DNA of 64,000 nucleotides, from the NCBI RefSeq assembly GCF_019683635.1, contig NZ_JADGIA010000001.1:1-64000 (forward strand), in the 5' to 3' direction. The stretch comes from Thermogemmatispora sp. (lineage in GTDB: Bacteria > Chloroflexota > Ktedonobacteria > Ktedonobacterales > Ktedonobacteraceae). A model generated the notes under the pieces. It had not been told where the DNA came from and made no database searches. It worked only from the letters and a program-made list of their open reading frames with translations. Made by a program: the position numbers and the translations under genes. Below are positions 25,423-51,027 of this stretch, in pieces (positions within the stretch are counted from its first letter, which is position 1; the number at the start of each line of letters is the position of its first letter).

Positions 25423-25687
25423 GGCAAAGCCTCCTATAGTCAACATAGTGTAGGGTCGGATGGACGACTAGATGGATGTATCTGCTCTTTCAACGGTGTG
25501 TGTTCCTTCTGATCCTTCCTCCTGTTCTTCTCATCTCCCCCCTATTCTAGCACTGATGGTCCCTGTCTGCGACCTCTATCTCTTGGCCACTGTCGATCTG
25601 AACGCAGGCAGACAGCCAGATAGTATAATAAAAGCACGAACCGCTCTCCTCGCAGCGGTGCAGCAGGACATAAAGGCGGTCTTCTGT

Positions 25688-27796
25688 ATGGATGCACGTA
25701 TCTCTCAGCATCACCTGACAGTTCGTGAGCAACTGGTCCTCAGCTTCCTCTGGCTCGGACTCAACATCCAATCAGCCGCCCTCTTGCCGATTGTGATCCC
25801 GACCCAGATTCTTCTGTTTGTCGCTCCGGGCCAGGTTGGCAGCGCTGAGCAGGCTACCTTTCTGGGCTGGCTGTCAGCGATGGGGGCCTTTTTTTCGCTG
25901 ATCGTGCCGCCCATTGTGGGCCTGCTTTCTGATCACACCAGCAGCCCTTTTGGCAGACGGCGACCCTATATCGTGGTCGGCGGAGTGTTGACGCTGGTCA
26001 GCGCTCTCCTGTTAGCGGGCGCTGTGAGCGTGGCCCTGTTGGTAGTTGGGCTGGCGCTCTTCCAGTTCGCCAGCAACGTTGTCTGGGCGGCCTATCAGGG
26101 TTTACTGCCCGATCTGGTGCCAGAGGACCAGCGCGGTGAGGCTTCTGGCTACATGGGCCTGATGACCATTCTGGGCAATGTTGGTAGCCTGGGTCTGGCG
26201 GCCTGGCTACTCGGAGGGGTGAGCCTGGGATCGCTCGGCGCTCCTCTGATTGTACGAGGTGCGCTGATTTATTATGTGGTAACCGATCTGGTTATGCTGC
26301 TTGGTATTCTGGTGACTGCCTTTGGGGTGCATGAGATGTCCTATCATCCGGCGGCCCAGGCCAAAAGCCGACTTCGCTCCTGGGAGGAGCTGCGCCGCTG
26401 GCTGGTCAGCAACTGGATCGCACCCTGGCGCAGCTCCAATTTTACCATTGTCTTCTTGACGCGCTTCTGCGTCATGATGGGCCTCTACTTATTCATGACC
26501 TTCATCGAGTACTATTTTGCGAATGTGGCCCATGTCTCCAATTTTGTTCAACAGACGGCTGCTGTGGCCACGCTGGCTCTGGTGGGCGCCTTGCTCAGTA
26601 CGCTGGGTCTGGGAATGCTCTCGGATCGCTTTCGCCGGGCGCCGCTCGTTTGCCTGGCGACACTGGTGATGGGGCTGCCGGCCCTGGCCTTCGTGGTGGC
26701 GCCAGCGGCGCTGCCGCTCTGGCCGTTGGGCCTGCTCTTCGGTCTCGGCTACGGTGCCTATACCAGCGTTGACTGGGCCCTGGCGATCGATGCCCTGCCT
26801 TCGCTGGAAGTGGCTGCCAAGGACCTGGGTCTGTGGGGCGCCTCATCGAACCTGCCTTTGACGCTGGCTCCCTTGCTTGGTAGCCTGGTCATCAGTATAG
26901 CCGCTAGTCAGGATCAGACAGCTCTGGGCTATCGCCTGGTCTTCGCTCTGGCCGCTTTCTTCCTCCTGCTCGGGGCGATTCTGGTGCTGCGTGTGCGCGA
27001 GCAGCGCCAGCAGCGTCTCCTCCCGGAGCCGCCAGGTGGCGGAGCTGGAGAGCAGGCACCTGGCGAAGCAGAGAGGATGCTGATGGCGTCGACTCCGGCT
27101 CTATCCACGGCTGCCATCTCGTCGGGGGCGCATCCCATCCAGCAGGGTCGGCGGCGACGGAAACGTGTCAATCCTCTCTGGTTGCTGGCGCGTGAGACGC
27201 ACGCTGGCGAGGCGCAGGGGATCATGCGCTTCTGGACTTTTTGGGAGAGGTTGTCGCTCGCTGTGCTGAGGATTCAGCCGGTGCCTGCTGCTCCCTATGG
27301 TCTGTTTCGTGCCCGGCTCACGCGCTATCATGGTCGGCGTCCCCTTGTTCTGCCCGATGGAACGCGCATCGACCACGGCGATCGGCTGATGGAGCTACAT
27401 TTTGCCAATCGTCGCCTGCGCGATGCCGCCCTGCGGAGTTCTCCCTGGGAGCTGCTGCGGATGATGCGCGCCGATCTGCGCGCCCTGGCAGCCTGGTTGC
27501 AGACGCCGGCCTGCGCGGAGGTGCGCGCAGTCTATGGCGTGACTCTCTTAGGCCAGGCGGCGCCTCGCCTGGGCTTCAGCTTGCGAGAGAGGCCGCGTAA
27601 CCTGTGGAGCCGGGCTGATCGCATTTTTATGACCGGCCTGCTGCTTCTCTATCACCCGCAGGGGCGAGCCCGTCTCGCGCGCGGCACCACCTATGGCCGC
27701 TATCCCACGGAGGTCTGGATGTCGCGCTCCGAGCTGCTACGCCGCTACGGCGGCTCTGATGGAGCAGCGCCGAGCGCGCACACCCAGCGGGAATGA
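25688..27796 (+). CDS. MFS transporter fused to YkoP-like domain
   Basis: About 702 residues when started at 25688 (MDARISQHHL), which has AAGGCGG eight bases ahead; the track's start adds 72 unlikely residues. Residues about 15-440 are a 12-helix major-facilitator protein of the SLC45/GPH kind, with the motif LSDHTSSPFGRRRPYIVVGG and a WAAYQGLLPDLVPEDQRGEASG loop. After a Gly/Pro/Ala linker (about 440-500), residues about 530-695 form a soluble cytosolic domain (LFRARLTRYHGRRPLVLPDG, GDRLMELHFANRRL, YHPQGRARL, EVWMSRSELLRRYG) that I recognise as YkoP-like. A sugar or lipid substrate is possible. A TATAAT at 25624-25629 may be its -10. Confidence 0.85.
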   Translation: MDARISQHHLTVREQLVLSFLWLGLNIQSAALLPIVIPTQILLFVAPGQVGSAEQATFLGWLSAMGAFFSLIVPPIVGLLSDHTSSPFGRRRPYIVVGGVLTLVSALLLAGAVSVALLVVGLALFQFASNVVWAAYQGLLPDLVPEDQRGEASGYMGLMTILGNVGSLGLAAWLLGGVSLGSLGAPLIVRGALIYYVVTDLVMLLGILVTAFGVHEMSYHPAAQAKSRLRSWEELRRWLVSNWIAPWRSSNFTIVFLTRFCVMMGLYLFMTFIEYYFANVAHVSNFVQQTAAVATLALVGALLSTLGLGMLSDRFRRAPLVCLATLVMGLPALAFVVAPAALPLWPLGLLFGLGYGAYTSVDWALAIDALPSLEVAAKDLGLWGASSNLPLTLAPLLGSLVISIAASQDQTALGYRLVFALAAFFLLLGAILVLRVREQRQQRLLPEPPGGGAGEQAPGEAERMLMASTPALSTAAISSGAHPIQQGRRRRKRVNPLWLLARETHAGEAQGIMRFWTFWERLSLAVLRIQPVPAAPYGLFRARLTRYHGRRPLVLPDGTRIDHGDRLMELHFANRRLRDAALRSSPWELLRMMRADLRALAAWLQTPACAEVRAVYGVTLLGQAAPRLGFSLRERPRNLWSRADRIFMTGLLLLYHPQGRARLARGTTYGRYPTEVWMSRSELLRRYGGSDGAAPSAHTQRE

Positions 27797-30122: not shown

Positions 30123-31607
30123 TCAATTGTTCCCTCCCCTGCTGCGCAGGGCTGGCCAGAGGTTGCAGGCCAGGCAGAGGACTGTGGCCAGTCCTGATGG
30201 ACCCGACAGAGCGAAGAGCAGGTTCAGGAGCAGGGAGCTGCCGGACCAGAGGCTTCCCAGCGGCGAGGCCAGAAGCAGGGGAAAAACACGCAGGATGGTG
30301 GCCAGGTTGCCGAGCCAGAGGGTGGCCGCTACCAGCCGGGGCGAGGTGATCTTGCCGCCGGAGAAACCTGGGATCATGCGCGGAGCGATGCCGCAGATGA
30401 GCAGGGTGATGAAGCCCATTGCCAGGCCGTGGCGTGGCACGTCGAGACTGAAGGGAAGCGGGCTGCCCCAAAGCAGGATGAGGCCCGCGCTGATAAGCAG
30501 GAGGGCTGAGAAGAAGGCCCATAGATAGGCGCTGGCGATCAGGGCGACGAAGGGGCCATAAGCCTGGCTTTGCTGGGCAGTGTGGCGACGATAGGAGCGT
30601 GCCAGGGCTTCTGGTGACGGGGAAAGGGCCGCGACGTGGGCCGGTAGCCGTCCACGCCGGCGCATCATGCTGATAAAGATAGTAACAAAGCCAGCGATGA
30701 CGCCGCCCATCAGCAGCAGGCCAGGCCCTTCGAGGAAACGAAGCGGCCAGGTGGTCGCAGCTGACGCCACGTCGGCTCCGTTGGCGAGGCTCAGGCCCAG
30801 GCAGAAGAGGAGCAGCCCAAGCCCATAGCCGCCGGCCAGCGGCCAGAGGATAGGTCGCGGGAAGGCTTCCAGCCCGGCGTACATGGGAAGCGACTGAGCA
30901 GAGACGGCCAGGGCGAAAGAGATGAGGAAGCCGAAGAGGCCGAGGCTGACGTTAAGGTCGTCGCCAGGCTGGGGAGCGAGGCCGCCCTGAGTGGCCGCCT
31001 GCAGCATATTGACCAGATTCAGGATGGCCGCCACCGTTAGGGCGAGCGCAGCCAGGCTGATAAAGGGAGCAATCCCTAAAAAGGCTTTGCGTGTACTCAA
31101 GGCTGGACCACGCCGCAAGAGTAGGAGGTATTCAGCAGCGGCCAGCAACAAAGCCAGTCCCTCGCTGCCGCCGCTCACCACAAGCGCCAGCCTCCAGAGG
31201 AGAGGGACAGGACCGGTCAGGGTGAGCAGCGGCTGGGCCAAGGCGCGCAGGAGCAGGCCACCAGTCTGCAGACCGAGAATCCAGGGCACCAGCCGCGGTA
31301 GCGGGAGAGCCGTGCCGCGCAGACGTGGCAGGAAATGGAAGGAGACGCCGATGACGAAGAGCGCCGCCCAGCCATAGAGCTGGAGATGGCCATGCGCCTG
31401 CACCAGGGCGCTCCACCAGGCCGCAACTGCGAGATGCAGGGCCTGGGTCACCGTCAGTATGGCAGCCAGCAAGAACCCGCCGCCGCTGCCGATGAGGAGG
31501 GAGGCGCGCAACACTGGAGAGACAAGCTTGAACGGCTCTTGCGGTCTTTCGCGCTCCCTGCCGGCACTAGCTGCACCCGCCGAAGAGGTAGCCTCTGCCG
31601 CAGACAT
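30123..31607 (-). CDS. NnrS-like polytopic membrane protein
   Basis: 494 residues with about 12 hydrophobic helices. Two His-containing helices read LVQAHGHLQLYGWAALFVIGVSFHFLPR and RHGLAMGFITLLICGIAPRMIPGFSG, which match the NnrS family and resemble heme-copper-oxidase subunit I helices. NnrS proteins are heme-containing and counter nitrosative stress. The start codon shares one base with the cupin stop (TGATG), so the two are translationally coupled. The order cupin then NnrS-like, beside DUF2249 genes and a Crp/Fnr gene, points to nitric oxide or low-oxygen physiology. No nitrite or NO reductase is in the window. Family assignment is by motif only. Confidence 0.75.
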   Translation of the reverse strand: MSAAEATSSAGAASAGRERERPQEPFKLVSPVLRASLLIGSGGGFLLAAILTVTQALHLAVAAWWSALVQAHGHLQLYGWAALFVIGVSFHFLPRLRGTALPLPRLVPWILGLQTGGLLLRALAQPLLTLTGPVPLLWRLALVVSGGSEGLALLLAAAEYLLLLRRGPALSTRKAFLGIAPFISLAALALTVAAILNLVNMLQAATQGGLAPQPGDDLNVSLGLFGFLISFALAVSAQSLPMYAGLEAFPRPILWPLAGGYGLGLLLFCLGLSLANGADVASAATTWPLRFLEGPGLLLMGGVIAGFVTIFISMMRRRGRLPAHVAALSPSPEALARSYRRHTAQQSQAYGPFVALIASAYLWAFFSALLLISAGLILLWGSPLPFSLDVPRHGLAMGFITLLICGIAPRMIPGFSGGKITSPRLVAATLWLGNLATILRVFPLLLASPLGSLWSGSSLLLNLLFALSGPSGLATVLCLACNLWPALRSRGGNN

Positions 31608-32080
31608 CAGCCCTCACCTCCTCCGGGCCTGCGCTGCGGCTCGCTGGCAGGCCCCTCTGCAGGGGGGGCGACGGCCTGGATCTGGGCTATCTTGCCTTCT
31701 GCGCTGGCCGCGATCAGGGTGATCAGGAAGACGCTATCCTGTAGTGCTTCAACGCTATGGGCCACGCGCGGCTCCAGATGCAGCAGTGTTCCCGCTCGCA
31801 TGCTGATGCGCTCGTGCTCCAGCGTGAACATGAGGTGTCCGCTGATGACCTGGATAAAGGCTTGATAGCTCGTACGATGCTCGTCTAGCTGCTGCCCTTC
31901 CTGCAGGGCGAGCAGCAGCAGGCGCCCCGTGGCGCTTTCCCAGAGCACTCGCACCGCTGACCCCTCGCTGCGGAAGGTTGCTGAGGACGCCAGATCGAAG
32001 ACCCTGAAATGGCTCGTGGCCTCTGGCTCCTCAGCAGCGCGACTTGCCTGGCTGGTGTTGGCCTGCTCCTGTTGCTCCAT
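31607..32080 (-). CDS. Cupin-domain protein
   Basis: 157-residue single-domain cupin. The beta-barrel region runs from about residue 45 to 125. The first motif is weak (DEHRTSYQAFIQVISGHLMFTLE, one His), and the second reads HLEPRVAHSVEAL. With few His/Glu ligands it may bind no metal or a weakly held one. An acidic Gln/Ala-rich N-terminus and a Pro/Gly-rich C-terminus flank the barrel. Similar small cupins accompany DUF2249 and NnrS genes elsewhere. It overlaps the next gene by one base. A TTGACA lies at 32138-32143 on the minus strand, but a matching -10 (GAGGAT) is poor. Confidence 0.8.
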   Translation of the reverse strand: MEQQEQANTSQASRAAEEPEATSHFRVFDLASSATFRSEGSAVRVLWESATGRLLLLALQEGQQLDEHRTSYQAFIQVISGHLMFTLEHERISMRAGTLLHLEPRVAHSVEALQDSVFLITLIAASAEGKIAQIQAVAPPAEGPASEPQRRPGGGEG

Positions 32081-32162
32081 CCTGTCTGGATGCCTCCTTC
32101 CCGTTGCTTAGACTATCCTCCCGGTGATCATCTCTGCTGTCAATCGGTAATTCAGAGGGAGA

Positions 32163-32405
32163 TCAGCCAGCGCGCTTGATAATGCGAATGATCCACTCCT
32201 CTGGCCCCTGTTGCTCCGGTATCCAGTCGAAAGCCTCTGGATATTCGGCCATCAATTGATAGCGCAAAGGGGCGGGATCGTGGTCGTTGATCAGGCGCAG
32301 CGCACTACCTGGCTGGAGCGCCTCCAGGCGGCTGAAGATGAGCGGATGACGCTCACGCGGTATGATCGTGCGCACGTCGAGCGTTTCGGCAACGTTGTCA
32401 CTCAT
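32163..32405 (-). CDS. DUF2249 protein
   Basis: Single-domain 80-residue DUF2249 protein. Recognisable blocks: LDVRTIIPRERHPLIFSRLEAL at the start, LRLINDHDPAPLRYQLMAEYP in the middle (the conserved NDHDPxPL motif), and EWIIRII at the end. The domain has a TusA-like small alpha/beta fold and is repeatedly found with hemerythrin, cupin and denitrification genes. Its biochemical role is not established; redox or metal-sulfur handling is suspected. It lies at the head of a minus-strand series with the cupin and NnrS-like gene, separated from the cupin by 82 bp. Confidence 0.85.
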   Translation of the reverse strand: MSDNVAETLDVRTIIPRERHPLIFSRLEALQPGSALRLINDHDPAPLRYQLMAEYPEAFDWIPEQQGPEEWIIRIIKRAG

Positions 32406-32629
32406 GCTTGAGCTTCTTCCTCCTGATGTATCTACAAAAAGGCGACGATCGATCTAGCTATCATGAGCCAGGGACAGTGGTGCCCTTCCGGCCAGTAGCG
32501 GAGGCTTGTCCGCTGGAGACAGAAGGCTAGCTGTTCTGCCGGGAGCATCACAACTGGGACTATACCCCCTGGGCGAACGAGCTATCCTCTCTGTTCTGCC
32601 TCCAAGTATGGCAGCCTGGCCACGAAAAT

Positions 32630-32675
32630 ACCGTGACTTTTGTCGCAGCTTAGCTGCCCTCCTGCACGCTATACT
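32630..32675 (+). promoter_or_regulatory. Candidate Crp/Fnr-type site and -10 of the DUF59 gene
   Basis: CCGTGACTTTTGTCGCA contains an imperfect dyad GTGAC-TTTT-GTCGC (centre about 32639.5). A TATACT lies at 32670-32675, predicting a start near 32682, so the dyad centre falls around -42, the normal class II activator position. Nearly the same sequence occurs before the Crp/Fnr gene at 34957. The rest of the 32406-32807 gap shows no gene. Confidence 0.5.
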
Positions 32676-32807
32676 TGCCCGTGAGGTGACGGTGAGCCAC
32701 TGCTGCTCCGCCCCCTTGCCTGGACTGCTTCGTCCTGTGTGGGAAGGCGGAGCAGCGCCCTCTGTAGGCGCTCTCTCTGCTAGCAAAACTGAGCCAGAAA
32801 GGGGCTG

Positions 32808-33140
32808 ATGGCAACCATGCTTGATGAGAAGACAATTGAACGGGTCAAGCGGGAGATTTACGAAGCACTGCGCAGCGTGGATGATCCCGAGCTGGGGGTC
32901 AATCTTGTCGATCTCGGTTTGATTTACGGCCTTCACTTGACGCCGGACGGCTTTGTGACGATCCGCATGACTCTTACCACGCCCGGCTGTCCCATGCATG
33001 AGTCGCTGGCGGACGGCGTCGGGGCGGCGCTGGCCCATATTCCCGAGCTAACGGGCGGCGAGATCGAACTGGTCTGGGAACCGCGCTGGACACCCGAGCG
33101 CCTGACCCCCGAAGGAAGACGCCTGTTGGGACTGGCCTGA
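32808..33140 (+). CDS. DUF59/MIP18-family metal-sulfur cluster protein
   Basis: 110-residue protein of the MIP18 (PaaD/SufT-like) family, which helps assemble or deliver iron-sulfur clusters. Blocks: ALRSVDDPELGVNLVDLGLIYGL (the DPE signature) and MTLTTPGCPMHESL, holding the conserved Cys in TPGCP. AAAGGGG lies close to the ATG; a second ATG at 32817 is possible. It is the only plus-strand gene among minus-strand DUF2249/NnrS-like genes. A client heme-copper or Fe-S enzyme in this locus is plausible but not seen. Confidence 0.9.
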   Translation: MATMLDEKTIERVKREIYEALRSVDDPELGVNLVDLGLIYGLHLTPDGFVTIRMTLTTPGCPMHESLADGVGAALAHIPELTGGEIELVWEPRWTPERLTPEGRRLLGLA

Positions 33141-33174
33141 CCAGCTAAGTCGCCAGGCTGGTTCCAACAGGCGT
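33121..33174. terminator. Hairpin between convergent genes
   Basis: CGCCTGTTGG pairs exactly with CCAACAGGCG, with more pairing inside (GGCCTG with CAGGCT). It overlaps the last codons of the DUF59 gene and stops 13 bp short of the opposing gene's stop. Symmetric and U-less, it may terminate both transcripts. Confidence 0.5.
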
Positions 33175-33186
33175 GCCTGTCGAGGG

Positions 33187-34548
33187 CTAGCTGCGTAACG
33201 TGCTCAGCTTCCATTCCAGGTGGCGCACCACACCGAGCACATTGGCGGCTGCTCCCACCAGGCTCGCCCCGACCAGGGCCGCGCCCAGGCGCATCAGCAG
33301 GCCATCCCAGGCGAGGAGTGTGGCGGGCAACAGCAGCACCAGCCCCCCGTTGAGCAGCCAGAAGCTGATCCAGGCCAGGCGCTCGTGGACCAGCTCGCGC
33401 ATCAGCGGTACCTTCTGATGGCCGACCAGCGGTCCATAGCGACTATGCCAGACGAGAAAGGGAACGATCTTGTAGAGGTAGCCAACTATGCTCTGCCCTG
33501 TCCAGCCGACGAGCAGGCAGAGCACGAAGGCAACAGGCCAGGCAGGCAATGCACCCCCCATCGCGATCAAGATAGGCAAGGCTATTGCCGCGATCAGCAG
33601 CCAGATGAGGGCCGCACTACTGTGATACTGGGTCACGTCCAGGGGACGCCGCCGCCGCCGACGCAGCATGCGCCAGTAATCCCAGCCAAAGAGCCAGACG
33701 CTGAGTGTGAGTAACACCGCCCCCAGTAGCGTCAGCCAGATCTCGCTCCCCAGCAGGCCGAGAGCCAGCCCAATGATCCCCAGATTCAACAGCCCTAGCA
33801 CGACCCAGCCCAAATGATCATTGTGATCGTGCACCAGCGCGAAGAGGCGCACCAGCGTGTAGGAGACGCCTACCAGCATATTCGTCAGCCAGCCAGCCAG
33901 ACCCAGGGTCACATGAATCGGCAGGACCAGCAGCGCCCCCAGGCCCAGAAAACCATAGACGAAGTTGAGAGCCGCCGTCAGGCCGAGCGCAACAACCAGG
34001 CCAAGGTAGAGCAGGGCGGCGAAGAGGTAGAAGCTCGTCAGCGGGCGCTTGCTAGCCTGGAGCAGGGTTGTAGCCAGAATGGCCACATAGCAGAGCACTG
34101 CCACGATGACCAGTGAACCCCCGAGCACGAGCAGCCCGGGAAGAAAGAACCAGAAGCCGCTCAGCAGCACCAACACCCCGGCCAGATAGAGAGGATAGAC
34201 CACGGGAGTCAGAGCTTTGAGGCGCAGGGGCGTGACGGCAATCACTGGCGTGAGCTGCTGCGAGGCTCCCAGGATGGTCATAGTCAGCCAGCCGAGCGTC
34301 ACCGTGTGGACAAGGGCCAGGACGTGGGGCTGACCGCGGTTGATGAGAGCCTCGGGCAACACGAATGGTAGCAAGAAGCCGGCTAGAGCGGCCAAACAGA
34401 TACCGGTAACCAGAAACGGCAAAGGTATCCCGAGCGGCACACCGCGGCGCCCCATCATCCCGGGCAATCCGCCGGCCTGCTGGTCTGTAATCCTGAAGGC
34501 GCCAGCCCGGGCGCCTGCTCCAGGGGGTCCGCCGGCCATTGGCATCAT
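33187..34548 (-). CDS. Heme-copper/NnrS-like polytopic membrane protein
   Basis: About 454 residues from the ATG at 34548, which has AGGTG six bases upstream; the track's longer N-terminus runs through the DUF2249 gene and is rejected. About 12 TM helices. His residues fall at helix positions typical of subunit-I-like proteins: QPHVLALVHTVTLGWLTMTILGAS, LPIHVTLGLAGW, and LYKIVPFLVWHSRYG. A basic Arg cluster (MLRRRRRRPLD) sits in a cytosolic loop. It looks like a second, divergent member of the NnrS/CcoN superfamily. The cytochrome oxidase Tyr-His crosslink motif is not evident, so terminal oxidase activity is unlikely. Downstream partner of a DUF2249 gene in one operon. Confidence 0.7.
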   Translation of the reverse strand: MMPMAGGPPGAGARAGAFRITDQQAGGLPGMMGRRGVPLGIPLPFLVTGICLAALAGFLLPFVLPEALINRGQPHVLALVHTVTLGWLTMTILGASQQLTPVIAVTPLRLKALTPVVYPLYLAGVLVLLSGFWFFLPGLLVLGGSLVIVAVLCYVAILATTLLQASKRPLTSFYLFAALLYLGLVVALGLTAALNFVYGFLGLGALLVLPIHVTLGLAGWLTNMLVGVSYTLVRLFALVHDHNDHLGWVVLGLLNLGIIGLALGLLGSEIWLTLLGAVLLTLSVWLFGWDYWRMLRRRRRRPLDVTQYHSSAALIWLLIAAIALPILIAMGGALPAWPVAFVLCLLVGWTGQSIVGYLYKIVPFLVWHSRYGPLVGHQKVPLMRELVHERLAWISFWLLNGGLVLLLPATLLAWDGLLMRLGAALVGASLVGAAANVLGVVRHLEWKLSTLRS

Positions 34549-34573
34549 TGTTATCACCTGCCTTGCTGCGCGC

Positions 34574-34855
34574 TTATTGTCCTGTGGGGATCTCCTGGCG
34601 CGTGAAGCGTACCACCCATTCATTGGGAGCCAGACAAAGTGTCTCGTGGCTGAAACCGCGCCCGCCGAGCACTCCATAGAGCGGTACTGGCTCAAAGGGA
34701 GCCACAATCACCAGCGTTTCACCTCTCTTCAGCGGCGTGGCCGCCTCCATGATTCGCACAAAAGGTTCATCGCCGCGTTCCAGATCAGGGCGCACGTCCA
34801 GCAGGGCTGTCGCCTGCTCGCGCCAGATCTGGGCCTGTTCCTGGTTCGCGTCCAT
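34574..34855 (-). CDS. Second DUF2249 protein
   Basis: About 93 residues if started at 34855 (MDANQEQ), with AAAGGAGG just ahead; the ATG at 34891 would add 12. Core pieces: ALLDVRPDLERGDEPFVRIMEAATPLKRGETLVIVAPFEPVPLYGVLGGRG, matching DUF2249 with the FEPVPL version of the conserved turn, and EWVVRFTRQ at the end. It is the first gene of a two-gene operon with the polytopic protein 25 bp downstream. It is divergent from the Crp/Fnr gene. Confidence 0.85.
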   Translation of the reverse strand: MDANQEQAQIWREQATALLDVRPDLERGDEPFVRIMEAATPLKRGETLVIVAPFEPVPLYGVLGGRGFSHETLCLAPNEWVVRFTRQEIPTGQ

Positions 34856-34956
34856 AAGCCTCCTTTCCGGCTCGGTAAGATTGCCGGCCATCTCACATTT
34901 ACTTGCCCCGTCAATCGGCGCTACAATTCTGAGTGTACAGCTCGGGATAGGCTGTC

Positions 34957-34977
34957 ACCGTAACTTTTGTCGCATCT
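34957..34977. promoter_or_regulatory. Second copy of the 21-bp motif
   Basis: CCGTAACTTTTGTCGCA matches the sequence upstream of the DUF59 gene at 19 of 21 positions. It lies in the 176-bp divergent gap between DUF2249 and Crp/Fnr, 55 bp before the regulator start, so it could serve autoregulation or activation of the opposite operon. Confidence 0.5.
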
Positions 34978-35031
34978 GGCAAGCACACCGGTGAGTTGGC
35001 TTCTTTGGCCGGCAGCGAATGCGAGAAGAAG

Positions 35032-35727
35032 ATGGCAATCGATATTGAGGCGGTACGCCGCATACCGATGTTCGCCGCGTTAGGAAGCGAGGAGCTGGCG
35101 CGCGTGGCCGCGGTCATCAGAGAGCGGCGCTACGAGCGCGGTGAGTTGATCATCATGGAAGGAGATCGTGGCGGCGCGCTGTATTATGTGCAGAGCGGGC
35201 TGGTTAAGGTCTTCAAGCTCTCGCCTGAAGGCAAAGAGCAGGTATTGCGCCTGATCAGCGCTGGTTCTACCTTCAATGACGTGCCGGCGCTGGATGGCGG
35301 CCCCAATCCTGCGAGCGTGGCCGCGTTAGAGCCGAGCACCGTCTATAGCATTGGCCGCGAAGAGCTGCGCCGACTGATCAGAGAGCGGCCAGCGGTGGCA
35401 GAGGGGGTAATCGCCGCCCTGGCGCTGGCTCTACGCCACCTGGTGGGCCTGGTTGAGGACCTCTCGTTCCGCCATGTCACGGCGCGGGTAGCGCGCATCC
35501 TCTTGGAACAGGAGCGGGCCCTGGCCGAGGGCCGTCAGGCACGCCGCCTGACTCAGCAGGAGATGGCCGCCATCGCCGGCACCGCTCGCGAGGTCGTGGG
35601 GCGCGCTCTCAAAGAGCTAGAGGCCGCCGGGGCGATCTCCGTTCGGCATGGGCGCGTACACATTCTCAGCCAGGAGCGTCTGCAGCTCCTGGCCGGCAGC
35701 GGCCCTGGACTGATGCCGGCCTTGTAA
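35032..35727 (+). CDS. Crp/Fnr-family transcriptional regulator
   Basis: About 231 residues from the ATG at 35032 (the track's TTG start is unsupported). N-terminal cyclic-nucleotide-binding fold (MFAALGSEELARVAAVIRERRYERGELIIMEGD, then YVQSGLVKVFKLSPEGKEQVLRLISAGSTFNDVPALDGGPNP), the long dimer helix, and a C-terminal winged helix (RLTQQEMAAIAGTAREVVGRALKELEAAGAI). No N-terminal Cys cluster is present, so it is not an Fe-S FNR. A heme-binding or ligand-sensing type (DNR/CooA-like) is possible given its neighbours. Likely regulator of the adjacent NnrS/DUF2249/DUF59 genes; that link is inference from divergent position and the shared motif. Confidence 0.9.
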   Translation: MAIDIEAVRRIPMFAALGSEELARVAAVIRERRYERGELIIMEGDRGGALYYVQSGLVKVFKLSPEGKEQVLRLISAGSTFNDVPALDGGPNPASVAALEPSTVYSIGREELRRLIRERPAVAEGVIAALALALRHLVGLVEDLSFRHVTARVARILLEQERALAEGRQARRLTQQEMAAIAGTAREVVGRALKELEAAGAISVRHGRVHILSQERLQLLAGSGPGLMPAL

Positions 35728-48911: not shown

Positions 48912-49027
48912 AAAAAAGAGCGTCTGGTCCTCAGTGATTTATGTGTATTTGTCTGTGGATGGATGTGCCAAGCACGCCGCCGTACAGCGGCAGGCCCACG
49001 CTGCTCGCGACTGGACAGGGCGGTGGT

Positions 49028-50356
49028 ATGTGCGGCATCAGCCGGTCAAGTGAAAGTATGATGGATTCTGAACGACACCACGCTCCAGCCAATGAAAATC
49101 TTGCCGCAGCGGATGAGGGCCAGGAAGAGGCGGCCTCTTTGCTTGGTAGTAACCGCGAGCTGGCGATCCTCTATACCATTGCTGGCCAGCTCAATCGCAA
49201 AGTGGACGTGCGTGAGGCTTTGCAGGAGGTCTTGAGTCAGGTCACTCGTCTGCTGGGACTCAAGACAGGCTGGGTCTGGCTGCTTGACGGGGAGGGGAAG
49301 CCGTTGCTAGCCGCTGCGCAGTCCTTGCCCCCTTACCTGGCTGACCACCCCGAGCGGATGACCGGGCGCTGCCTCTGTCTGGATACCTTTCTAGGCGGCA
49401 ATCTGGCCAGTGCGGCCAATATCAATGTGCTGCGCTGCAGTCGCTTGCGCAACGCTGAGCGCGAGGGTGATCCTTCTTCCTGGGGCCTGCGTTTCCATGC
49501 CAGCGTCCCAATCCATGTGGGGGAGGTGCCGCTGGGGGTGCTGAATGTGGCCAGCGAGGACTGGCGCGAGCTGCACTCGTCAGAGCTGCAATTGTTACAT
49601 ATTATCGGCGATCAGATTGGTCTGGCTATTCAGCGTGCACGCCTCTCTGCCGAGCATACGCGCGCCGCAGCCCGCCTGGCCACTATCGAGGAGCGTAACC
49701 GCCTGGCGCGGGAGATTCACGATACACTGGCTCAGGGCCTGGCGGCAATCGCTTTGCAGTTAGAGACCGCCGATGCTTTGCTGCCTACTCAGCCCGAACG
49801 GGCCCAGGCGGCCATTCGCCGCGCTCTGGCCCTGGCGCGCAGCAATCTGGAGGAGGCGCGCCGCTCGGTAATGGATCTGCGGGCCGCCCCGCTGCAGGAC
49901 CATGCCCTGCCCGAGGCTCTCGCTCTGTTGGTCAAGCGCTTGCAGGCCGAGAGCGGGACCCGGCTGCAGTACCGCTATGAGCCGCCGTCGGGACCAGGCA
50001 AGGAGCCTGGCCGCTTTCCTCCGCTCTCGCCTCATTGCGAGGCCGGCCTCTATCGTATCGCTCAGGAGGCTCTGTCTAACGCGCTGAGACATGCCGCCGC
50101 CGAGCAGATTACGCTCACTCTGGCGGTTCGTGATCAGATGATTGTGCTCCAGGTACAGGATGATGGTTGCGGCTTTGATCCCGACCGCGCCCGCGAGTAT
50201 ACGCGCGAGGGTCATTTCGGTCTGACCGGCATGAGCGAGCGGGCCCGCTTACTTGGAGCCCAGATCTCTATTGAGAGCCTGCCGGGTGCTGGCACCTCCA
50301 TTAGTGTCTATCTGCCCTACCACGGGCAGGAGCAAGAAAGGTCCCCCTGGCTATGA
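49028..50356 (+). CDS. GAF-domain sensor histidine kinase (NarX/LiaS type)
   Basis: About 442 residues. A GAF-like sensor domain (about residues 35-195, LLGSNRELAILYTIAGQLNRKVDVREALQEVL to QIGLAIQRARL), a HisKA_3 dimer helix with the phospho-His in LAREIHDTLAQGLAAIALQLE, and a HATPase domain (QEALSNALRHAAAEQITL, VQDDGCGFDPDRA, GHFGLTGMSERARLLGA). No TM helix, so it senses a cytosolic signal; a CLCLDTFLGGNL segment in the GAF part has two Cys that might hold a cofactor. The start is uncertain: ATG 49028 follows GGGCGG, with others at 48941 and 49058. Its stop overlaps the response-regulator start (ATGA). Confidence 0.92.
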   Translation: MCGISRSSESMMDSERHHAPANENLAAADEGQEEAASLLGSNRELAILYTIAGQLNRKVDVREALQEVLSQVTRLLGLKTGWVWLLDGEGKPLLAAAQSLPPYLADHPERMTGRCLCLDTFLGGNLASAANINVLRCSRLRNAEREGDPSSWGLRFHASVPIHVGEVPLGVLNVASEDWRELHSSELQLLHIIGDQIGLAIQRARLSAEHTRAAARLATIEERNRLAREIHDTLAQGLAAIALQLETADALLPTQPERAQAAIRRALALARSNLEEARRSVMDLRAAPLQDHALPEALALLVKRLQAESGTRLQYRYEPPSGPGKEPGRFPPLSPHCEAGLYRIAQEALSNALRHAAAEQITLTLAVRDQMIVLQVQDDGCGFDPDRAREYTREGHFGLTGMSERARLLGAQISIESLPGAGTSISVYLPYHGQEQERSPWL

Positions 50357-51027
50357 CGATTCGCATCTTGCTCGCTGATGACCATCCAATTGTGCGCGAG
50401 GGCTTACGGGCCGTGCTAGAGACGCAGCCGGATCTAGCTGTGGTGGCCGAAGCTGCCAACGGCGAGGAAACGATCGCCCAGGCCCGTGAAACGCACCCGG
50501 ACATCGTCCTGCTTGATCTTGAAATGCCGGTGTTGGACGGCGTCGAGGCTATTCGCCACTTGCTTGAGTTGGAACCGAAGCCGCGAGTGATCGTCTTTAC
50601 GGCTTTCGATAATGATGAGCGGATTCTGCACGCCGTGCGGGCCGGGGCCAGAGGCTATCTGCTCAAAGGGGCGCCGCGCGAGGAGATTTTCCAGGCCATT
50701 CGCGTGGCGATGGAGGGCGGTTCTCTCCTGCAGCCGGTGGTCGCCTCAAAATTGCTGCGTCAGATTGGCCAGCAGGGCGGTGGATCGCAGGCAGCTTCCT
50801 ATCCCTACGAGCCGCTGACCGAGCGTGAGCTGGAGGTCTTGCGCTTGCTGGCCCAGGGTATGCCCAACAAAGAGATCGCCACCCGCCTCGTCATTAGCGA
50901 GCGCACCGCCAAGTTTCACGTCAGTTCGATTATGAACAAGCTGGGAGCCACCAATCGCACTGAGGCGGTGGCCCTGGCCGCTCAGCGTGGCCTGATCACC
51001 CTGCAGGGTGATCCCTCCTGGCGCTAA
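50353..51027 (+). CDS. NarL/LuxR-type response regulator
   Basis: 224 residues: receiver domain (IRILLADDHPIVREGLRAVLE; phospho-Asp in DIVLLDLEMPVLDGVEAI; Thr in VIVFTAFDND; Lys in GYLLKGAPREE) and a C-terminal LuxR helix-turn-helix (EPLTERELEVLRLLAQGMPNKEIATRLVISERTAKFHVSSIMNKLGATNRTEAV). It overlaps the histidine kinase gene by four bases, so the two form one operon and a cognate pair. Target genes are not evident. Confidence 0.95.
   Translation: MTIRILLADDHPIVREGLRAVLETQPDLAVVAEAANGEETIAQARETHPDIVLLDLEMPVLDGVEAIRHLLELEPKPRVIVFTAFDNDERILHAVRAGARGYLLKGAPREEIFQAIRVAMEGGSLLQPVVASKLLRQIGQQGGGSQAASYPYEPLTERELEVLRLLAQGMPNKEIATRLVISERTAKFHVSSIMNKLGATNRTEAVALAAQRGLITLQGDPSWR

Follow-up and report, generated by a model that had tools for sequence, protein, structure and literature searches.

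A one-regulator, two-operator regulon in Thermogemmatispora with a probable role in handling nitrogen oxides

This study concerns seven genes (positions 30123 to 35727) in a 64,000-nucleotide stretch of the genome of Thermogemmatispora sp. (contig NZ_JADGIA010000001.1 of assembly GCF_019683635.1; hereafter the window), a heat-loving soil bacterium with a genome of 5.41 Mb. We propose, with a probability of about 0.6, that they form a regulon in which one Crp/Fnr-family regulator acts through two operators and which serves to handle a nitrogen oxide, most likely nitric oxide (NO). The regulon structure is well supported by sequence comparison, while good support for the nitrogen-oxide link comes from associations, because the operator is shared with the nirK genes of relatives, the genes co-occur with nirK, related genes are syntenic with nar in Thermus and with nap and heme d1 genes in Campylobacterota, and a further operon points the same way in Eleftheria; the exact ligand and the activity of the set are inferred. 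The locus is filed here as a reductase-free variant of the known drp-type denitrification accessory module of Thermus, a variant which probably handles or senses NO or another nitrogen oxide.

Results

The seven genes are real and make up one unit, and their coordinates and Pfam matches agree with a preliminary description of this DNA, made from the letters, which had recognised two DUF2249 genes, a cupin, a MIP18-type gene and a Crp/Fnr gene among them. The genes are as follows:

30123-31607, minus strand: MemA, 494 amino acids (aa); predicted heme-copper-oxidase-homology protein with 12 transmembrane helices (12-TM), NnrS-like, with invariant H72 and H393
31607-32080, minus strand: cupin (Cupin_2), 157 aa; Pfam Cupin_2 (5e-8)
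32163-32405, minus strand: DUF2249-A, 80 aa; DrpA-type, with RHP...NDHDP histidines and 58.6% identity to Thermus DrpA
32808-33140, plus strand: DUF59, a MIP18-type metal-sulfur cluster assembly factor, 110 aa; Pfam FeS_assembly_P/DUF59 (1e-19)
33187-34548, minus strand: MemB, 453 aa; predicted 12-TM heme-copper-oxidase-homology protein with invariant H82 and H213 (numbered on a 454-aa query that begins one residue before the ATG)
34574-34855, minus strand: DUF2249-B, 93 aa; resembles the first DUF2249 domain of Thermus DrpB (49%)
35032-35727, plus strand: Crp/Fnr-family regulator, 231 aa; Pfam cNMP_binding and HTH_Crp_2, 36% identity to Thermus DnrT, recognition-helix E187 and R191 conserved

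The start of MemA is overlapped by the end of the cupin gene as TGATG, a coupling already read from the letters, and the starts of MemB (ATG 34548), DUF2249-B (ATG 34855) and Crp (ATG 35032) were refined using ribosome-binding sites and conservation. Both DUF2249 (PF10006) matches (E 4e-28 and 4e-18; 97.5 and 65.6 bits) lie above the curated cut-off of 29.5. Conservation of the gene order in relatives had been put forward as a check on the grouping: order and strands of Crp, DUF2249-B, MemB, DUF59, DUF2249-A and the cupin are kept in all five other Thermogemmatispora genomes (congeners include Thermogemmatispora tikiterensis and T. aurantia), and the gene set is therefore not a product of chance. 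MemA is present in all six genus genomes, its copy in G002 lying on a separate contig, and the two DUF2249 proteins of this locus are the only ones that each genome encodes. The ratio of non-synonymous to synonymous substitution rates (dN/dS) is 0.04-0.24 for all seven genes in every comparison made among the genus genomes, and the locus is thus no relic.

Comparison of the intergenic regions gives good support to a private operator of the Crp/Fnr gene, TGCGA-N6-TCGCA, which is reported here for the first time. The sites and the predicted promoter elements are:

32632-32647, no strand: operator 1, CGTGACTTTTGTCGCA (reverse TGCGACAAAAGTCACG), bidirectional, between DUF2249-A and DUF59
34959-34974, no strand: operator 2, CGTAACTTTTGTCGCA (reverse TGCGACAAAAGTTACG), between DUF2249-B and Crp
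32605-32610, minus strand: -10 box CATACT of the DUF2249-A/cupin/MemA promoter, 32 base pairs (bp) from the operator 1 centre
32670-32675, plus strand: -10 box TATACT of the DUF59 promoter, 33 bp from the operator 1 centre
34932-34937, minus strand: -10 box TACACT of the DUF2249-B/MemB promoter, 32 bp from the operator 2 centre
34898-34927, plus strand: putative crp promoter TTTACT-18-TACAAT, with TACAAT invariant in the genus

The sequence CCGTRACTTTTGTCGCA occurs twice in the window without a mismatch (32631-32647 and 34958-34974), against 0.18 occurrences expected at three mismatches, and each of the six genus genomes holds two exact matches to TGCGACAAAAGTYAC, both at this locus, the other matches carrying two mismatches each and being dispersed in the genome. 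The sites and the -10 boxes are nearly invariant in the six genomes and belong to the best-conserved blocks of the alignments. With 32-33 bp to the -10 centre, the operator is centred at approximately -41.5, the class II activator position, at three promoters of the window: operator 1 faces two divergent units, DUF59 on one side and DUF2249-A-cupin-MemA on the other, and operator 2 belongs to DUF2249-B-MemB. Across 18 Ktedonobacterales loci, -10-like hexamers were found at this offset in 26 of 60 site-direction tests compared to 0-3 at any other offset, the loci being related and picked by operator score and the 60 tests not being independent.

The spacing of the operator is CRP-type, and E187 and R191, which correspond to the residues of E. 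coli CRP that recognise half-sites of this type, are conserved in 98% and 100%, respectively, of 51 neighbouring Crp proteins. Negative autoregulation of crp through operator 2 is plausible since the crp -10 box is 42 bp upstream of this site. Two further candidates were rejected, namely a heme-ligand histidine in the Crp protein, as H136 is unconserved in the family, and a wider regulon in the genus, as neither TGYRAC-N4-GTYRCA nor the exact motif (at most two mismatches) gave more than scattered sites, fewer than those of a reversed-pattern control.

A matrix built from the sites of the crp/DUF2249-B, DUF59 and DUF2249-A promoters was used to scan genes outside the training set in relatives from the order Ktedonobacterales. 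At a score of at least 12, the operator was found in 7 of 18 MemA upstream regions outside the genus and in 4 of 8 for nirK, against 4 of 231 background regions (p = 8e-7 and 3e-5), and at a score of at least 14 the counts were 5/18, 4/8 and 2/231 (p = 2e-5 and 8e-6). In this order the operator stands before detached MemA genes, and the crp/DUF2249-B operator is also present in loci outside the training set (L031, L034, L036, L037, L042). One high background score, upstream of an unrelated-looking gene on a G045 contig which also carries narG, was taken by eye as chance. The nirK products of the relatives score 162-210 bits against TIGR02376 (cut-off 296), with copper-ligand motifs that were judged by eye to be kept. 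Of the 41 relatives compared outside the genus, nine have both MemB and nirK, 28 have neither and the others are discordant, two in each direction (p = 8e-6, an optimistic value as the genomes are related). Fusion of the DUF2249-A domain with a hemerythrin domain was seen in two relatives (L028 3017-3781, L033 7294-8064).

The dnrT-nar-drp array of Thermus thermophilus encodes, like the window, a homologous Crp regulator, both DUF2249 types, MemB and DUF59. Its order on plasmids pTTJL1801 and pTHTHE1601 is dnrT, dnrS, narGHJI, a major facilitator superfamily (MFS) gene, drpA, drpB, a gene for a 144-aa protein, protoglobin, MemB and DUF59, with names assigned from position and published description, and the window proteins share 36% (DnrT), 58.6% (DrpA), 49% (first DUF2249 of DrpB), 35% (MemB) and 48% (DUF59) identity with their counterparts. 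The 144-aa protein is related to MemA and MemB and has a single unit. The Thermus array differs in holding nar, DnrS and protoglobin, whereas the window has no nar and possesses the three-unit MemA, the cupin and divergent units; moreover, the Thermus module adjoins and controls a nitrate reductase, which the window set, in a genus with no NarG in six genomes, does not. The conserved window operator was not seen at the Thermus locus. On a plasmid of T. thermophilus JL-18 (L274 13822-16608), the single-unit membrane protein, protoglobin, MemB and DUF59 lie beyond drpB. The published drp study (2018; PMC6282519) described drpAB as a two-gene operon with a proposed function in nitrate sensing, nar expression being no longer nitrate-dependent in drp mutants.

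At least 527 loci encode MemB relatives, and DUF2249-MemB-DUF59 is a recurrent operon in other phyla, often near nap and heme d1 genes. Of 89 MemB loci analysed, 70 contain the DUF2249 neighbour cluster (which by linkage also took in some cupins), mostly directly upstream, 52 contain DUF59, mostly directly downstream, and 52 have a Crp-type gene nearby. Sulfurovum-type loci (Campylobacterota) combine MemB with NapA, NapG and NapH and with the heme d1 or siroheme genes NirJ and AhbA/B, while an operon of Eleftheria reads DUF2249-qNOR-Rrf2-NnrS. Haloferax DUF2249 genes are induced under denitrification (PMC11218638), and COG4309 was tied to norB by Rodionov et al. (PMC1274295). The DNR, NnrR and HcpR regulons (PMC1274295) likewise join a Crp/Fnr activator to NnrS, COG4309 and nitrogen-oxide genes, although their operators (TGTGA-N6-TCACA, TTGAC-N4-GTCAA, TTGcg-N4-cgCAA) are unlike that of the window, and the Thermogemmatispora regulon, in contrast to theirs, is limited to one locus. 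The nitrogen-oxide link that the preliminary description had drawn from the NnrS and DUF2249 families is thus supported by data from Ktedonobacterales, Thermus, Campylobacterota and Eleftheria; that description contained neither the operator nor the connections to NirK and to the Thermus drp genes.

In Ignavibacteria loci (L101 9596-10051, L126 9444-9899 and others), a 151-aa single-unit heme-copper-oxidase relative (COX1, 2.5e-8) lies downstream of MemB, with DrpA-type and DrpB-type DUF2249 nearby and cupins in some. DrpB-type DUF2249 domains elsewhere (L108 7143-7952, L161 7415-7927) also match TusA (approximately 6e-8), which suggests that DUF2249 shares the TusA fold.

AlphaFold models were obtained for MemB (predicted local distance difference test score, pLDDT, 92; predicted template modelling score, pTM, 0.90; 12 helices) and MemA (pLDDT 89, pTM 0.89; 12-TM, heme-copper-oxidase-like). 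Foldseek returned the cbb3 oxidase CcoN as best match to both, with the NO reductase NorB lower in the list, and in sequence-profile searches MemB matched CcoN (8e-10) and MemA matched NorB (1e-4). A 12-TM three-unit heme-copper-oxidase fold is, based on these models, well supported for both proteins. In MemB, H82 and H213 are invariant in 76 sequences and H241 is present in 72 of them, while in MemA H72 and H393 are invariant in 27 sequences and H74 is present in 19; the full metal-ligand set (low-spin heme, high-spin heme and CuB) is absent from both alignments. Because two histidines are invariant and the full catalytic set is missing, one heme per protein is likely and an active heme-copper (CuB) site is not. 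The heme-copper/NnrS-like histidine helices of the preliminary description therefore stand as regards a heme-protein fold with invariant histidines, whereas only two ligand histidines are conserved in each protein and the CuB site is unsupported.

The NnrS-like identity was retained in part. The NnrS family (PF05940) is a 12-TM heme-copper-oxidase homolog with a nitrogen-oxide context, as is the case for MemA, yet MemA falls below the gathering cut-off of 28 bits (26.4 in the genome search, 10.4 in hmmscan) and MemB has no Pfam or NCBIfam match, NnrS included; a MemA relative (L198) passes with 45.1 bits. A circular permutation of MemB relative to CcoN was considered, as the unit of CcoN that best matches the first one of MemB is its last, but a collinear alignment gives an equal score (106.3 vs 106.2). 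The heme-copper oxidase homology (HCOH) families reportedly comprise three-unit proteins with two conserved histidines, as well as single-unit proteins, and MemA and MemB resemble them in their three units, two conserved histidines and DUF2249 neighbours. The association of these families with DUF2249 is credited to Pei et al. 2014 in PMC11218638.

No nitrite, NO or nitrous oxide reductase was seen among the scanned open reading frames of the window, and the self-contained nature first ascribed to the set holds genome-wide as regards NarG, NirK, NirS and heme-copper NO reductases. In the six genus genomes, which are drafts of approximately 89-95% completeness such that absence from one could be a gap but from all six is unlikely to be, there was no NarG above or near the cut-off, no NirK (the best score, 52 bits, belonged to a laccase-like protein) and no NirS/cytochrome cd1. 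Each genome holds one strong COX1 protein, which is aa3-type, and no second heme-copper oxidase was found, nor any cbb3 oxidase or heme-copper NO reductase, the searches not extending to NosZ, NrfA, Hcp or flavodiiron proteins. A formate-dehydrogenase-like 725-aa molybdopterin protein and a 449-aa multicopper oxidase were excluded by score as nitrate and nitrite reductase, respectively. A single-domain globin is encoded elsewhere in the genome.

Elsewhere in the window, a GAF-domain histidine kinase and LuxR-type response regulator pair lies 13 kb from the locus (48941-51024), GAF kinases of such kind being able to act as gas sensors, and a 774-aa MFS transporter with a fused YkoP domain is encoded at 25472-27796.

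Discussion

In the proposed regulon, a signal (NO, another nitrogen oxide or the accompanying low oxygen) would cause the Crp/Fnr regulator to activate all three transcripts, while operator 2, downstream of the crp -10 box, would damp crp. MemA and MemB would each carry one bis-histidine heme on a heme-copper-oxidase scaffold stripped of its catalytic centre, and may bind, hold or pass electrons to NO in an NnrS-like fashion and not as ordinary NO reductases, with the DUF2249 proteins as putative soluble partners and DUF59 presumably maturing a metal centre. Since no NarG, NirK, NirS or heme-copper NO reductase is encoded, the Thermogemmatispora set would act against NO from outside. Certain points weigh against this proposal: the nitrogen-oxide link is drawn from relatives and from association, in a genus without the partner enzymes, and it is not universal, four of the eight order relatives having no operator before nirK; the cupin has no assigned role in the system; and the single-domain globin could be the chief NO consumer.

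It is conceivable, if doubtful, that MemA/MemB, DUF2249 and DUF59 constitute a stand-alone NO-consuming or NO-transducing membrane heme system without a classical reductase, the same activity being supplied by the DUF2249-MemB-DUF59 operon in denitrifiers of many phyla. A nitrate/nitrite sensing relay as proposed for Thermus DrpA/DrpB, in which the DUF2249 and membrane proteins would detect a nitrogen oxyanion and adjust the Crp-type regulator accordingly, with detoxification not being the purpose, appears rather unlikely: the window does encode homologs of DrpA, the DrpB domain and DnrT, and drp mutants lose the nitrate dependence of nar expression (PMC6282519), but in a genus without NarG, NirK or NirS to regulate and with no further exact operators in the genome such a sensor would regulate only itself.

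The likeness of the MemA/MemB folds to CcoN, in a genus with a single aa3-type oxidase and no cbb3 or NO reductase, would also suit an accessory set of the aerobic respiratory chain that responds to low oxygen or redox state, in which MemA and MemB would provide hemes for electron transfer and DUF59 would help to assemble cofactors of the aa3 oxidase. We consider this improbable, given that the neighbours and the operator elsewhere go with nitrate, nitrite and NO enzymes and that no exact operator copy exists outside this locus. That the locus is the decaying remnant of a lost denitrification gene set is already unlikely, and is the least credible of these explanations; the same operator before the nirK of relatives is compatible with a genus that lost nirK or never had it, but the low dN/dS of all seven genes and the near invariance of both operators and the -10 boxes speak against decay.

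DUF2249, MemB-type proteins and DUF59 accompany nitrate, nitrite and NO reductases in many phyla, where the reductases partly mask their function. In Thermogemmatispora the set is under its own regulator and under selection, those reductases were not found and the genus has culturable species, which makes this a clean place to learn what such helper proteins do. The findings further suggest that the drp operon of Thermus, which has been examined as a nitrate sensor of two genes, belongs to an array of six that includes MemB and DUF59, and that sensing nitrate is not by itself enough to account for the retention of these genes.

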